From Pseudomonadota bacterium (GTDB lineage Bacteria > Myxococcota > Bradymonadia > UBA4248), in NCBI GenBank assembly GCA_017613855.1, contig JAGACY010000207.1, forward strand, positions 1 through 7,249: 7,249 nt of DNA, written 5' to 3'. Under the pieces are notes generated by a model. It saw only the letters and a program-made list of their open reading frames with translations, did not search any database and was not told where the DNA came from. A program made the position numbers and the translations under genes. The first letter of the stretch is position 1, and each line of letters starts with the position of its first letter. Shown piece after piece: positions 1 to 7,154 of the stretch.

Positions 1-92
1 GACCCCGTGTGGTCGCCCCAGCGAGCATGATCCAGAGAACAAAAATATGGCGTGAGTAGGGGCGACCCTGTGTGATCGCCCCAGCGAGCATA
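1..92. repeat. two copies of a GC-rich hairpin-containing direct repeat
   Basis: Two near-identical 29-base copies lie at 1-29 and 64-92. They share the core TCGCCCCAGCGAGCAT and differ at three positions, with starts 63 bases apart. The second copy is preceded by GG, so GGGGCGA (59-65) can pair with TCGCCCC (76-82) across a 10-base loop. The first copy starts at the window edge, so its left arm is cut off, but GACC (1-4) can still pair with GGTC (11-14). The 34 bases between copies show no coding signal. This is probably the end of a larger group of dispersed intergenic palindromes. Two copies with a single intervening stretch do not make a CRISPR. Transcription into the mutase gene probably starts further left, since I see no convincing promoter here. 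Confidence 0.7.
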
Positions 93-2534: not shown

Positions 2535-2592
2535 ATTTTTCATGCACAAAATATCCACGATCGTTAACCATAGCCTAAAAAAAGGAGTAATC

Positions 2593-3948
2593 ATGATTCA
2601 AATTGATTCAAAATACCGTTATATGGCAAGCTGCTTTTGTGATGAAATCTTTCACTGCAACGTATTTATGGAGACGTATCAGGGATGCATCCAACTGGAA
2701 TATGCTCCCAAGGAGTACCGTGATGATGAAAATCTCATGATCGATTTGCATACATTGGAAATTGTCCATATCAGTAATGATGTCATCCGTAATAGGAGAA
2801 AGGCCCGATGGCAGGCATGGGCAGATAGCGTTACATATAATAAACCCATGGAGGATCCGGAAGAACCTCCGGCCGGAGAGTGTGAAACAATTAATCATGC
2901 TGATTTGGCCGACAAGAAAGCATATCATTTCCTCATTCGGCTTGAGAAATCTGCTCAGACTGAGGCTCAGAATGTAGAATATGATTATTATGTCATGAGT
3001 GACATCGAAGAATGCTGCCAATTCTTTGATGATCATGCGATTCAGCCTGCGGACGAATCCATTCGAATTATTGATTTGTTCCATCTGAAAATATACAAAC
3101 CCAGAGATTTATTCAAGGCCAGGTATATGCTTCTCGGCGGTATTATTGGCGATACCGTCGGAAGTGTCTATGAATTCGATAATATTTATACAAAACAGTT
3201 TCCCTTGTTTTCAAACAGATCCATCTATACAGACGATTCCATTATGACCCTCGCTGTTGCGGATGTGTTGCAATATGAGAATCCAAAGCGTTTTCCAATG
3301 GATTATGATTTTATACGTGAACAAATCATTCAATCGATGCAGAAATGGGGCAGAAAATATCCGAATCCGAAAGGTGCGTATGGCAATCGGTTTACTAAGT
3401 GGTTAATGAGTAAGAATCCCGAGCCTTACAATTCGTTGGGCAATGGTTCGGCCATGCGGGTTTCGGCGGTTGGCTGGGTATGTCAGACGCTTGAGCAGAC
3501 GCTCGAACTGGCTGCAGCTACAGCAGATATTACACACAATCATCCAGAGGGAATAAAAGGGGCACAGGCAACTGCGGCAGCCATTTTCCTGGCTAGAACG
3601 GGCAAATCAGTTACCGAAATCCGACAATATATCGAATCGACATTCGGTTATGATTTATCCAGGACATGTGATCAGATTCGTGAGGTTTATACATACAATG
3701 AAACCTGTCAGGGGACTGTTCCCGAGGCATTGACGGCAGCTTTCGAGGGCAAGGATTTTGAGGATGTGATCCGTTTGGCTGTATCATTGGGCGGCGACTG
3801 CGATACGCTGACATGTATTGCTGGCAGCGTCGCTGGGGCTTTGTTCGATATCCCCAAAGAAATAGCCAAAGAAACGATGAAACGTCTGCCGGATGATATG
3901 CTGGATGTATTCAAGCGGTTTAGCTATTCTCGGCTCATAGATGGGTAG
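2593..3948 (+). CDS. ADP-ribosylglycohydrolase (DraG family) with unknown N-terminal domain
   Basis: From residue about 178 this 451-residue protein is an ADP-ribosylglycohydrolase of the DraG/ARH type, an all-helical dimetal enzyme that removes ADP-ribose from proteins or small molecules. Visible motifs are GGIIGDTVGSVYEF (182-195), the metal site TDDS (213-216), GNGSAMR (283-289), THNHPEG (314-320) and GGDCDT (400-405), where Asp402, Asp404 and Thr405 would complete the metal site (GGDTDT is more usual). Catalytic residues appear intact. Residues 1-175 match no domain I recognise. They are rich in Asp/Glu, Tyr and Cys, predicted soluble, with no signal peptide, and contain two similar segments (about 46-73 and 155-178). 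The start at 2593 is chosen over an in-frame ATG at 2542 because AAAGGAG (2581-2587) sits five bases before it. No ADP-ribosyltransferase or toxin gene is adjacent, so the substrate is unknown. Roles in nitrogenase-type regulation, toxin reversal or phage conflict are possible but unsupported here. Confidence 0.9.
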   Translation: MIQIDSKYRYMASCFCDEIFHCNVFMETYQGCIQLEYAPKEYRDDENLMIDLHTLEIVHISNDVIRNRRKARWQAWADSVTYNKPMEDPEEPPAGECETINHADLADKKAYHFLIRLEKSAQTEAQNVEYDYYVMSDIEECCQFFDDHAIQPADESIRIIDLFHLKIYKPRDLFKARYMLLGGIIGDTVGSVYEFDNIYTKQFPLFSNRSIYTDDSIMTLAVADVLQYENPKRFPMDYDFIREQIIQSMQKWGRKYPNPKGAYGNRFTKWLMSKNPEPYNSLGNGSAMRVSAVGWVCQTLEQTLELAAATADITHNHPEGIKGAQATAAAIFLARTGKSVTEIRQYIESTFGYDLSRTCDQIREVYTYNETCQGTVPEALTAAFEGKDFEDVIRLAVSLGGDCDTLTCIAGSVAGALFDIPKEIAKETMKRLPDDMLDVFKRFSYSRLIDG

Positions 3949-3953
3949 ATAAG

Positions 3954-3984
3954 AGGCCGTATTGCCGCAGGCAATAGGCCGAAA
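3954..3984. repeat. REP-like hairpin A, copy 1
   Basis: GGCC (3955-3958) and TATTGCC (3960-3966) pair with GGCAATA (3970-3976) and GGCC (3977-3980) around a GCA triloop, with one unpaired G at 3959. The whole 31-base stretch from AGGCC to GAAA recurs exactly at 4053-4083. The triloop is GNA-type closed by C-G, a class known to be unusually stable in single-stranded DNA. It begins five bases after the glycohydrolase stop codon. No T-run follows. Confidence 0.85.
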
Positions 3985-3985
3985 T

Positions 3986-4015
3986 ACACGTCGTATGCCG
4001 CAGGCATAGGCGTGT
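3986..4015. repeat. REP-like hairpin B
   Basis: ACACG (3986-3990) pairs with CGTGT (4011-4015), and TATGCC (3994-3999) pairs with GGCATA (4003-4008) around a GCA triloop. The internal loop is TCG opposite GG. The architecture is the same as hairpin A, with different stem sequence but complementarity kept. Confidence 0.8.
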
Positions 4016-4052: not shown

Positions 4053-4083
4053 AGGCCGTATTGCCGCAGGCAATAGGCCGAAA
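4053..4083. repeat. REP-like hairpin A, copy 2
   Basis: Exact 31-base repeat of 3954-3984, starting 99 bases after it, with the same GGCC-G-TATTGCC-GCA-GGCAATA-GGCC fold. It is followed immediately by another hairpin, as copy 1 is. Confidence 0.85.
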
Positions 4084-4119
4084 CGCGTGCCGTATGCGCA
4101 TCGCGCATAGGCGCGCCTA
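4083..4119. repeat. REP-like hairpin D with overlapping 12-bp palindrome
   Basis: CGCG (4084-4087) pairs with CGCG (4112-4115), and TATGCGC (4093-4099) pairs with GCGCATA (4103-4109) around loop ATC. The internal loop is TGCCG opposite GG. It occupies the same place after hairpin A copy 2 that hairpin B occupies after copy 1. TAGGCGCGCCTA (4108-4119) is also a perfect palindrome and includes the stop codon of the leftward cysteine-pathway gene. It may help end both convergent transcripts, but there is no T-run. Confidence 0.75.
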
Positions 4120-5034
4120 AAAATCCGTATCAAACAAATTCTTGCTAAAATAACGATCGCCGCGATCGGGAAATACAACAACAATATTACCGCGTGCACC
4201 GTCCTGAATGAGTTTTAATGCGGCCGAGAGTGCAGCGCCGGACGATGAACCTGCGAATATTCCTTCTTTTCGTGCGGCCAGGCGTGCAGCATCGAAAGCT
4301 TCGGCATCTGTAATTTTGTATATTTTATCGACGAGTGACATATCGAGTGTATCGGCGATAAAATCGTTGCCAATGCCTTCGATGAGATAATCAGCGTGTG
4401 TGCCGCCGCCGATGGTCGAACCGACGGGATCGGCAAGTACGGCTTGCAAATTGGGCAGATGCTGCTTGAGGTAGCGAGCAATGCCGGTAAATGTGCCGCC
4501 GGAACCTGCCCCGGCGACAAAGTAATCTATTTTGGCATTGAGATCCTGATATATCTCGGGGCCGGTCGTCTCATAGTGTGCCTGTGGATTGCTCTGATCC
4601 GAGAATTGATCGAGTACAACCGAACCGGGAATTTGCGCATGGAGTTCGGCTGCGCGCCTGTTGGCACCGAGCATGCCTTCTTCAAGAGGCGTGTGAATGA
4701 TTTCGGCGCCCAGGGCATGCATGAAGATCTGCTTTTCGATAGAAAATTTTTCGGGAACTGTAAATATCACGCGGTAGCCTTTGTTAAGTGCCGCAAATGC
4801 AATGCCAAGACCGGTGTTGCCTGCAGTTCCCAGAACAATTGTACCGCCGGGTCTGAGCTCTCCGTGACGTTCGGCGGCTTCGACCATATATCTTCCGGTG
4901 CGATCCTTGACGCTTCCTGATGGATTGTATAATTCTAGTTTTGCAAACAAAGATACATCTGACGGGAGATCGAAATGACCAAGTTTTACAAGCGGCGTCT
5001 GGCCTACGAGTGCCTGCATCGATTCGTAATACAT
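4117..5034 (-). CDS. mccA: cystathionine beta-synthase / cysteine synthase family enzyme (MccA-like)
   Basis: This 305-residue fold-type II PLP enzyme covers the whole catalytic domain and lacks a C-terminal CBS regulatory pair. The PLP lysine is in NPSGSVKDR (Lys43). The asparagine loop is GTAGNTG (69-75), with Ala where O-acetylserine sulfhydrylases usually have Ser (TSGNTG). The phosphate-binding glycine loop is GAGSGGTFTG, followed by EGIGNDFIADTLDMSLVD, GSSSGAA and a terminal PDRGDRYFSKNLF. TAGNTG together with the IEGIGN-DTLDMSLVD stretch resembles B. subtilis MccA (YrhA), which makes cystathionine from O-acetylserine and homocysteine. I therefore favour that reaction over H2S-dependent cysteine synthesis, though both remain possible. 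The ATG follows the TAA of the upstream gene with no gap (TAAATG), and AGGAGG (5045-5040) lies five bases ahead inside that gene's last codons, so the two are transcriptionally and probably translationally coupled. Confidence 0.87.
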   Translation of the reverse strand: MYYESMQALVGQTPLVKLGHFDLPSDVSLFAKLELYNPSGSVKDRTGRYMVEAAERHGELRPGGTIVLGTAGNTGLGIAFAALNKGYRVIFTVPEKFSIEKQIFMHALGAEIIHTPLEEGMLGANRRAAELHAQIPGSVVLDQFSDQSNPQAHYETTGPEIYQDLNAKIDYFVAGAGSGGTFTGIARYLKQHLPNLQAVLADPVGSTIGGGTHADYLIEGIGNDFIADTLDMSLVDKIYKITDAEAFDAARLAARKEGIFAGSSSGAALSAALKLIQDGARGNIVVVFPDRGDRYFSKNLFDTDF

Positions 5035-6204
5035 TTATACCTCCTGAAGCTGGCTTGTGCGTATGGCCTGGCTCAGATCGGCGATGAGATCATAGACATT
5101 TTCAATGCCGACCGATAGGCGAATCAGGTTTTCGGTTATGCCGACTGCATCGCGGATTTCTTTGGGGAATGCGGCATGGGTCATCGTTGACGGATGACAG
5201 ACGAGCGATTCGACGCCGCCGAGGCTTTCGGCAAGGGCAACCAAATGCAGAGATTCAAAAAATCGATTCAAATTGTAGTTGTCCTGAAGTTCGAAGGATA
5301 TCATGGCACCGCCGTTTTTTGCCTGTCTCATTTGTATATCGTGTCCCTGTGCATCCTCAAATCCGGGATAATAGATATTTTTGACGGCTTCGTTTTTGCG
5401 CAGGAATTGTGCGATGATTTCGGCATTCTGTGTGTGTCTGTCCATGCGAACGGCGAGTGTTTTGATGCCGCGTATGAGCAGGAATGAATCGAATGGTCCG
5501 AGTACGCCGCCGGTCGAATTTTGTATAAATGCAATTTTTTCGGCCAGATCCTGCGTGGTGACGACGACCAGACCGGCGACGAGATCGCTGTGGCCGCCGA
5601 GATATTTGGTCGCACTATGAATCACGATATCGGCACCGAGGGATATCGGGCGCTGCAGATAGGGCGTCATAAATGTATTATCGACTATCGTCAGGATATG
5701 GTGCTTCTTGCAAATTGCAGCAATCGCCTGGATATCGGTGACCGAAAGCAGCGGATTCGCTGGGCTTTCGATAAATGCTGCTTTAACTTCCGGGGTTATT
5801 GCCTTTTCGAATATTTGGGGATTTGTGGTATCGACAATCTCAAAACCAATCTTAAAATGATTGAATACTTTGGCCAGAACGCGATAGGTTCCGCCATATA
5901 CATTTTGTGAAAGAATGATCTTGTCACCGGATTCAAACAGGCTGAGCACCGCAGTGGTAGCGGCCATTCCGGATCCGAAGGCAAATCCTGCGACACCGCC
6001 TTCGAGCTCGGCAATCAGTGCTTCGAGGGCTGCGCGAGTTGGATTGCCCGTGCGGGAGTATTCGTAACCCCCGACGAGTTTGCCCAGACCTTTTTGTTCA
6101 TAGGTCGATGTCTGATAAATCGGCACATTGACCGATCCGGTGAGAGCATCCCCATAGATGCCGCCGTGAATGAGTGCAGAATCGAGATGTTTGTAATTAG
6201 CCAT
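5035..6204 (-). CDS. mccB: cystathionine gamma-lyase/beta-lyase type PLP enzyme (MccB-like)
   Basis: This 389-residue fold-type I PLP enzyme of the Cys/Met metabolism family shows YSRTGNPT (49-56), GSGMAA (77-82), the aspartate loop VDNTFMTPYLQRP (174-186), the PLP lysine in SATKYLGGHSD (Lys200), TGGVLGPFDSFLLIRGIKTL (231-250) and SLGGVESLVCHPSTMTHA (327-344). The TGGVLGP and GGVESL-HP-TMTHA patterns are typical of bacterial cystathionine lyases, including B. subtilis MccB (YrhB), which splits cystathionine to cysteine, alpha-ketobutyrate and ammonia. Cystathionine gamma-synthase and beta-lyase relatives are close, so specificity rests mainly on the adjacent mccA-like gene. The start at 6204 is preferred over an in-frame ATG at 6270: AAGGAG (6217-6212) lies about seven bases upstream, the family N-terminus aligns with MANYKHLDSALIHGG, and the longer form would overlap the preceding gene. 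That gene's TAA lies within this ribosome binding site, so the operon is tightly coupled. Confidence 0.88.
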   Translation of the reverse strand: MANYKHLDSALIHGGIYGDALTGSVNVPIYQTSTYEQKGLGKLVGGYEYSRTGNPTRAALEALIAELEGGVAGFAFGSGMAATTAVLSLFESGDKIILSQNVYGGTYRVLAKVFNHFKIGFEIVDTTNPQIFEKAITPEVKAAFIESPANPLLSVTDIQAIAAICKKHHILTIVDNTFMTPYLQRPISLGADIVIHSATKYLGGHSDLVAGLVVVTTQDLAEKIAFIQNSTGGVLGPFDSFLLIRGIKTLAVRMDRHTQNAEIIAQFLRKNEAVKNIYYPGFEDAQGHDIQMRQAKNGGAMISFELQDNYNLNRFFESLHLVALAESLGGVESLVCHPSTMTHAAFPKEIRDAVGITENLIRLSVGIENVYDLIADLSQAIRTSQLQEV

Positions 6205-6215
6205 GATTTTTCTCC

Positions 6216-7154
6216 TTATATTGTAAATATGCTCTGGTTTGCAAAGTAGTGACTGTGTTTTTCGGCACAAATAAAATGAATATTCTCGTATGCGGTGAGG
6301 CCGTCCTGCCGATCTTTAAAGTAATTGTTTTGGATGGCCTGTGGGGAAAGATGTTTTGTAATTTTGCAGTGATGGCGTTCGAAGACACCATGCATTTCGT
6401 CCAGAGAAAATCCCTGTGTCATGCGTTCACCCAGGCGTGCAGTCATTTGTGCTAGTCTGCGCACTCGCTCGGGGGTCGTTGCATTAAACGGTGTATTTTC
6501 CGGGTAATCAAGAACAATTGTACTTCCTGTGGCTGATATCGAATCGATTCGTTCGATCGTATTTTCGAATGATTTCAGCGATAGATAATAGGTCACGCCG
6601 AGAATAGTAAAAAATGTCGGCAGGTTGGGATCATAGCCGGCTTCGAGTAGTTTGGTTGCCATATCGTCATGCGAAAAATCGACGGGCACAAAGTTGATGT
6701 TTTTCTGTATGATCCAACCCAGTTCTGCAATTCGGTGCTGTTTGTACTTTTGCGTATCGGGGTGATCGACTTCAAAAATCGTAATGTTCGGATTATCATT
6801 TCTGAACAGGAACGAATCCATGCCGGCACCGCAAATCACATACTGGCATCGAGGATATTTTTGTATAAATGTATTAAAAATATCGAGTGTAAAAGCTTCG
6901 CGTGACAGCGGGATTGGAGCAAGTAAGTGGACTGTTTGAGAAATTTTATCATGATAAGGGCATGTCGAATTGCAGTTTTCGCACATGCCGCATTTCCCGC
7001 TTTCGATGAGTTTGCGAATATTGCCGTATTCATTGGATCCCATCAGATCAAAAGCGAGATAGTCGTCGAATATCTTGTTGCGCTCATGAATGGAATGGTG
7101 TGCGCGGACAAATGAACATAGTTTTGCTGTAATGCTTTCGTGATTTTCGATCAT
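6216..7154 (-). CDS. SAM-dependent methyltransferase, LCM/PPM1 type, with ferredoxin-like Cys motif
   Basis: This 312-residue class I methyltransferase shows the pattern of the leucine carboxyl methyltransferase (PPM1/TIGR00027-like) group: N-terminal SITAKLCSFVRAHHS (7-21), the SAM glycine loop VICGAGMDSFLFR (106-118), the acidic motif FEVDHP (127-132) with a following lysine, VPVDFS (156-161), and ILGVTYYLS (184-192), which matches the family's G-V-T-Y-Y-L segment. Bacterial members act on small molecules or are uncharacterised, so the substrate is unknown. Residues 55-66 read CGMCENCNSTCP, the CxxCxxCxxxCP spacing of [4Fe-4S] ferredoxin sites, in the region before the SAM loop. It could bind an iron-sulfur cluster, zinc, or serve as a redox switch. 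No transmembrane helix or signal is seen. It is the first gene of the leftward operon, 11 bases before the mccB-like gene. The ATG at 7154 has only a weak upstream GGA (7164-7162). No clear promoter is visible in the remaining 95 bases of the window. Confidence 0.85.
   Translation of the reverse strand: MIENHESITAKLCSFVRAHHSIHERNKIFDDYLAFDLMGSNEYGNIRKLIESGKCGMCENCNSTCPYHDKISQTVHLLAPIPLSREAFTLDIFNTFIQKYPRCQYVICGAGMDSFLFRNDNPNITIFEVDHPDTQKYKQHRIAELGWIIQKNINFVPVDFSHDDMATKLLEAGYDPNLPTFFTILGVTYYLSLKSFENTIERIDSISATGSTIVLDYPENTPFNATTPERVRRLAQMTARLGERMTQGFSLDEMHGVFERHHCKITKHLSPQAIQNNYFKDRQDGLTAYENIHFICAEKHSHYFANQSIFTI

Follow-up and report, generated by a model that had tools for sequence, protein, structure and literature searches.

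A clade-restricted four-cysteine loop in an LCM-type methyltransferase encoded beside mccB and mccA

The methyltransferase gene and its operon

The window, meaning the whole stretch of 7,249 nucleotides analysed here, carries an operon in which an LCM-type methyltransferase gene is followed by mccB-like and mccA-like genes (Table 1), the adjacency that an earlier note on this DNA had described. The mccB-like gene begins with an ATG at 6204, 11 bases past the methyltransferase stop and with AAGGAG ahead of it, and the mccA-like ATG at 5034 comes immediately after the mccB stop. The best NCBIfam match of the mccB-like protein, PRK07671, scored 559.5 bits, below its cut-off of 594, and the mccA-like protein matched TIGR01137 (322.1 bits) and TIGR01136 (320.9 bits), both under their cut-offs. 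The window operon was found to lack luxS, metK and nucleosidase genes. Riboswitch control was rejected: no Rfam match, e.g., to a T-box or S-box, was found in the window at E <= 1, the 95 bases upstream of the gene included, and in the nine loci scanned out of the 80 compared below, none exceeded its gathering score. In Myxococcales bacterium UBA4248 (locus L001), the closest titled relative at 94% identity among the best 80 of 163 loci, other ORFs were seen between mccA and the phosphomutase gene.

Table 1. Coordinates of features in the window
Feature	Position	Strand	Basis or remark
LCM-type class I SAM methyltransferase gene	6216..7154	-	ORF from ATG, 312 aa
GAGMD SAM loop (residues 109-113 of the methyltransferase)
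Hypervariable loop, residues 52-69	6948..7001	-	Alignment and AF2 model
Conserved cysteine loop, codons of Cys55-x2-Cys58-x2-Cys61-x3-Cys65-Pro66	6957..6992	-	Homologue conservation
Codons of Cys55, Cys58, Cys61 and Cys65	6992-6990, 6983-6981, 6974-6972, 6962-6960	-
Codons of Pro66 and His68	6959-6957, 6953-6951	-
mccB-like cystathionine gamma-lyase / homocysteine lyase	5035..6204	-	PF01053, 1.2e-149
mccA-like PLP enzyme, O-acetylserine-dependent cystathionine beta-synthase / cysteine synthase type	4117..5034	-	PF00291, 3e-71
ADP-ribosylglycohydrolase domain (residues 196-435)	2542-3948		N-terminal ~195 residues without Pfam match
Direct repeats, 45-nt pair	3954-3998 / 4053-4097		89% identity; intergenic, downstream of mccA
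Direct repeats, 28-nt pair	1-28 / 64-91		93% identity; intergenic, before the phosphomutase gene

The methyltransferase passed the curated cut-offs of both PF04072 (E 5.2e-36; 124.7 versus 22.3) and TIGR00027 (134.6 bits versus 93.55), which places it in the LCM/TIGR00027 family. The AF2 model has the LCM fold, and its best fold matches are Rv0731c, ML2640, LCMT-1 and PPM1. These results agree with the earlier description of an LCM-type enzyme with a class I SAM loop. They also agree with the statement that it is no radical-SAM protein: CxxxCxxC is absent from the translation, no radical SAM Pfam match was found, and this identity was rejected on the wrong motif. ML2640 and Rv0731c, bacterial methyltransferases of the TIGR00027/LCM-fold type, share 20–22% identity with the window protein and differ from it in the cysteine loop, which among the aligned proteins is specific to the clade of the window protein. 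The LCM family is not known to bind metal.

The whole chain contains nine cysteines. Cys13 (7116-7118), Cys103 (6846-6848) and Cys108 (6831-6833) are near-invariant in the family sample (179/179, 170/179 and 176/179, respectively). Their near family-wide occurrence rules them out as lineage-specific extra ligands, and they cannot explain the loop, although they could still be recruited as ligands.

The cysteine loop and its conservation

Residues 55–66 of the methyltransferase are CGMCENCNSTCP, with four cysteines packed into eleven residues; the motif and its position, 6953-6992, had been given correctly. In the AF2 model, residues 52–69 form a coil between helices 40–51 and 70–78, and this loop leads into the segment of Arg85, presumably a SAM-binding position in the LCM family. 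The loop is hypervariable, and its sequence differs in relatives outside the clade. The motif thus lies within a hypervariable loop of an ordinary LCM fold and would hardly be needed for methyl transfer. A first AF2 model, made from 18 close sequences, gave pLDDT values below 50 at residues 49–70. A second, made from 141 sequences, was better, with an overall pLDDT of 88.2 and values of just 73 and 61 at residues 51–60 and 61–70, respectively; this low confidence in the predicted loop counts against a metal site there.

A single-sequence search, with its best 120 matches listed, returned 1040 relatives, and an 18-sequence profile search returned 4023, with the same 17 proteins at the top of the best 120 listed. 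Among the matches listed for the profile search, these 17 scored 606–525 bits and the next relative scored 433 bits, a gap that defines the window clade as 17 protein clusters plus the window protein in the database searched. The four cysteines are kept in 14/14 proteins (the window protein and P0001–P0013; 93–65% identity), consistent with the conservation among close homologues that the earlier note had raised, while the residues between them vary. Cys55 and Cys58 are present in all 18 proteins of the wider clade. The spacing CxxCxxCxxxC is intact in 12/14, and spacing plus proline in 11/14: P0006 has one residue fewer between C55 and C58 (CxCxxCxxxC), P0013 has one residue fewer between C61 and C65 (CxxCxxCxxC), and leucine replaces Pro66 in P0004. 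Pro66 and Tyr67 are each found in 13/14. A role of His68, pointed out as nearby in the earlier note, was not borne out: position 68 varies between H, Q, K and R across the 14 proteins, which puts His68 outside any conserved site and removes it as a candidate ligand.

The remaining clade members, P0014–P0017 (62, 58, 56 and 57% identity, respectively), keep C55 and C58 and lack C61. A cysteine at position 65 is kept in P0014 and P0015; in P0016 it is shifted by between one and four positions, a figure that varies with the alignment, and in P0017 it is absent at or near this position. Homologues lacking two or more of the cysteines, which the earlier note had named as the observation that would speak against it, were thus not seen among the 14 closest proteins and appeared only at a distance, as P0016 and P0017, without C61 and the C65 position, and beyond the clade. 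There, among 161 other relatives drawn from the best-listed search matches and aligned, the segment of residues 39–86 contains no cysteine in 132, one in 20, two in 2, three in 4 and four in 3. Within the clade, thiols are found at other places: P0014 has C55, C58, C65 and C77, P0017 has C47, C55, C58 and C76, P0016 has C47, C55, C58 and the displaced one, and an extra C44 is present in P0007–P0009, P0011 and P0012. At least four cysteines within residues 39–86 were counted in 17/18 clade members versus 3/161 others, the exception in the clade being P0015 with three. That the number of thiols is kept while their places shift speaks for a thiolate metal site of loose construction, one that would tolerate shifted ligands, the independent cases being few.

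In a tree of 179 rows, built by a quick method without bootstrap and with the loop columns left out, all 18 rows of the window clade share a branch with SH-aLRT 99, and the 14 four-cysteine rows share one with SH-aLRT 93. The wider clade is the ruminant-gut order around Myxococcales UBA4248; its loci L002, L003 and L005 are from ruminant gut MAGs of the same order as G001, the genome of L001. Outside the clade, three or four cysteines are found in P0036, which has CSACGLNC inserted in the same loop, and in P0047, P0061, P0086, P0098, P0120 and P0130, which share a loop of the C-x4-C type. The latter six form one tree group within a seven-row fork (SH-aLRT 97) that includes P0154, with one cysteine. 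Cysteine-rich loops were therefore apparently gained more than once, and cysteines may collect there for a reason other than metal binding.

In a rival reading there is neither metal nor switch: these bacteria are presumed to be anaerobes, whose variable loop would tolerate thiols, and short divergence time or packing would have preserved them. The hypervariability of the loop across the family and the single cysteines of the 20 relatives would fit, and the column test is modest: of the 25 columns of residues 52–76, 10 are conserved in at least 13/14 proteins, all four cysteines among these, and the chance that 10 random columns include all four is 0.017. However, the window gene and L001 already differ by 72 synonymous and 19 amino-acid codons, the four cysteines persist amid changing neighbours in homologues as distant as 65% identity, and the thiols move yet remain at least four in 17/18. 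We consider this explanation unlikely. Judged from the alignments, the four-cysteine loop is a real, lineage-specific feature that is apparently kept by selection within the clade.

Iron-sulfur, zinc or neither

In the proposed mechanism, the variable loop between two N-terminal helices, before the Arg85 segment, would have become a thiolate metal site in the UBA4248 clade, and the metal (Zn2+ or [4Fe-4S]) would tie the loop down in a structural rather than catalytic job. As read from the sequences, the retention of all four cysteines amid varying neighbours, of C55 and C58 clade-wide, and of the thiol number favours such a site. Likeness to ferredoxins is weak evidence in the same direction. 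In the three four-cysteine proteins scanned, the best Fer4 E-values were 0.011 (window), 0.012 (P0003) and 0.019 (P0008), all short of the cut-off; the window protein scored 16.1 bits against 25.5 for Fer4_10, 15.0 against 22.2 for Fer4_17 and 12.2 against 25 for Fer4_6, and the Pfam scan gave no Fer4 match in P0036 and P0120. Searches of the PDB returned a ferredoxin as the best match both for the window loop (E 0.064) and for the 14-row loop profile (E 0.22), each non-significant, and the match lists also include zinc-finger and other small cysteine-rich proteins. The proline and tyrosine at positions 66 and 67, present in 13/14 each, speak for Fe-S. Counting against a metal site, P0015 has three cysteines, where a histidine could be the fourth ligand, and the one-residue deletions between cysteines in P0006 and P0013 would be unusual if the cluster were rigid.

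The earlier note had called the motif exactly a ferredoxin site. This holds for the CxxCxxCxxxCP spacing in the window protein and is not supported for the motif as a conserved feature, given that spacing or proline drifts in 3/14, that Fer4 stays below cut-off and that the motif is single. In 2[4Fe-4S] ferredoxins, two motifs are found per chain, and the Cys-Pro cysteine of each is a ligand of the opposite cluster; a second CxxCxxCxxxCP motif is absent from the window chain. In a homodimer, the two loops might jointly make up a split 2[4Fe-4S] ferredoxin, in which each Cys65-Pro66 would serve the cluster of the partner. One half-motif per chain, of just this Cys-Pro type, would suit such an arrangement, but P0004 lacks the proline and the spacing is broken in P0006 and P0013, and we regard it as highly improbable. 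Zinc in a structural site, the simpler alternative offered in the earlier note, is the other candidate. The structural lobe of zinc-dependent alcohol dehydrogenases has the form C-x2-C-x2-C-x7-C and shares the CGxCxxC start with the window motif, whose last spacing is x3 followed by proline instead of x7. With this last spacing and no ADH Pfam match listed, identity with that lobe was rejected.

A direct catalytic role of the cysteine site appears unlikely by sequence comparison, since relatives at about 46–56% identity lack it. A known system offers a parallel: in RumA, loop cysteines supply some of the ligands of an iron-sulfur cluster, its homologue RlmCD is without the cluster, and a direct catalytic role of the RumA cluster was excluded by the authors (PMC5614603). 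RumA (RlmD) and RlmCD thus resemble the present case in having loop cysteines on a SAM methyltransferase that are missing in a homologue. RumA differs in its family and cysteine spacing, in using three loop cysteines and one central-domain cysteine, and in its rRNA substrate (PMC5614603).

Gene context and the predicted place in cysteine synthesis

Gene context was compared across 80 loci, the best 80 of 163 found in titled genome records, with downstream neighbours counted if they share the strand and lie no more than 4.5 kb away. Downstream of the methyltransferase gene, mccB was found in 65/80 loci, mccA in 63/80, luxS in 48/80 and metK in 21/80, and cysK was found upstream in 50/80. Among loci whose sequence continues for 4 kb or more downstream, mccB was present in 55/63 and missing in 8/63 (L006, L031, L035, L061, L072, L075, L077 and L078); in L035, mccB-mccA lies upstream in the opposite orientation, and L006 has a piece of mccA upstream. 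In the other seven loci without mccB (L004, L012, L017, L021, L025, L027 and L052), the sequence ends less than 600 bases from the gene. Neither luxS nor metK lies between in 17/65 of the mccB loci. The clade loci L001, L002, L003 and L005 have mccB-mccA in 4/4. A special tie of the cysteines to the cysteine operon, as the earlier note had envisaged, was not supported, given the 61/76 loci outside the clade that also have mccB downstream: mccB next to relatives without the cysteines makes the link to cysteine synthesis independent of the loop.

Frame length and a MetK match point to LCM-MetK fusions in nine loci (L018, L027, L036, L040, L042, L053, L059, L060 and L062), that of L027 being cut by the contig end. 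Pfam confirmed the fusion in both loci scanned of these nine (L018 and L040), and also LuxS in L008. In seven of the nine as counted, the fusion is followed by mccB-mccA with luxS between; L040 and L053 are named exceptions, and in L027 the downstream genes are not visible. P0143 likewise bears both LCM and MetK Pfam domains. Among the titles and abstract starts of the matches listed, neither an LCM-family metal site nor an LCM-MetK fusion was found in the open-licence literature.

The operon, the genome context and the MetK fusions together suggest that the LCM enzyme probably performs the SAM-to-SAH step in the conversion of methionine to cysteine. SAM would be converted to SAH by the predicted LCM-fold methyltransferase, SAH to S-ribosylhomocysteine by MTAN, S-ribosylhomocysteine to homocysteine by LuxS, homocysteine to cystathionine by MccA, and cystathionine to cysteine by MccB. 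The order of G001 comprises nine genomes, of which seven were tested further, G008 and G009 being left out. The LCM gene was found in 5/9 genomes (in G007 a fragment, at the beginning of a contig), LuxS in 5/7, the same five as the LCM gene (in two pieces in G007), and MTAN over cut-off in 6/7; among the seven, AdoHcyase was found in G006 alone, a genome that lacks both LCM and LuxS. This distribution suggests that SAH should run via MTAN and LuxS to homocysteine, with the absences uncertain because the completeness of these genomes is not given. Counting against the pathway reading are the missing luxS, metK and nucleosidase genes of the window operon, the 8/63 loci without mccB and the 17/65 mccB loci without luxS or metK.

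Two known cassettes are comparable. Methionine-to-cysteine conversion is described for a ubiG-mccB-mccA(-luxS) operon in clostridia (PMC2940859) and for a yrrT-mtnN-mccA-mccB operon in bacilli (PMC3519770). In both, as in the window, a SAM methyltransferase gene heads mccB and mccA (PMC2940859, PMC3519770). The head gene of the window is of the LCM type, with MetK fusions in relatives, and is likened to UbiG and YrrT by operon make-up.

On balance, we lean towards an LCM methyltransferase at the SAM-to-SAH step with a structural loop metal site, zinc or [4Fe-4S]. Alternatively, the loop could be a redox- or Fe-S-sensitive switch, in which the state of a thiol cluster or disulfide would move a lid over the SAM site and meter the SAM spent on cysteine. 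Such a switch would suit a loop protein encoded in a cysteine-forming operon, a ferredoxin-like CxxCxxCxxxCP motif with proline and tyrosine in 13/14, and a loop leading to the Arg85 segment, presumably SAM-binding. It is a proposal, however, that we find rather unlikely: the operon link is shared by cysteine-less relatives (the 61/76 loci), and the cysteine spacing drifts in 2/14. In its boldest form, an LCM-fold methyltransferase would carry a [4Fe-4S] cluster that gauges Fe-S or redox status and sets the drain of SAM into cysteine, its loop having gained cysteine clusters more than once; this strikes us as quite improbable.

Metal binding at the preferred structural site, if real, would be a first for the LCM family, as far as known, and a further case, beside RumA and RlmCD, of a loop-borne metal coming and going in SAM methyltransferases. 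It would also be a lead to how anaerobes control the spending of SAM for cysteine. A description of the function of the subfamily was not found among the matches listed from the open-licence literature. The most useful by-product of the analysis is the functional evidence that operons and MetK fusions provide for the subfamily as a whole: an LCM protein beside or fused to MetK, with LuxS, MccB and MccA, gives a large gut and rumen LCM subfamily a testable function.
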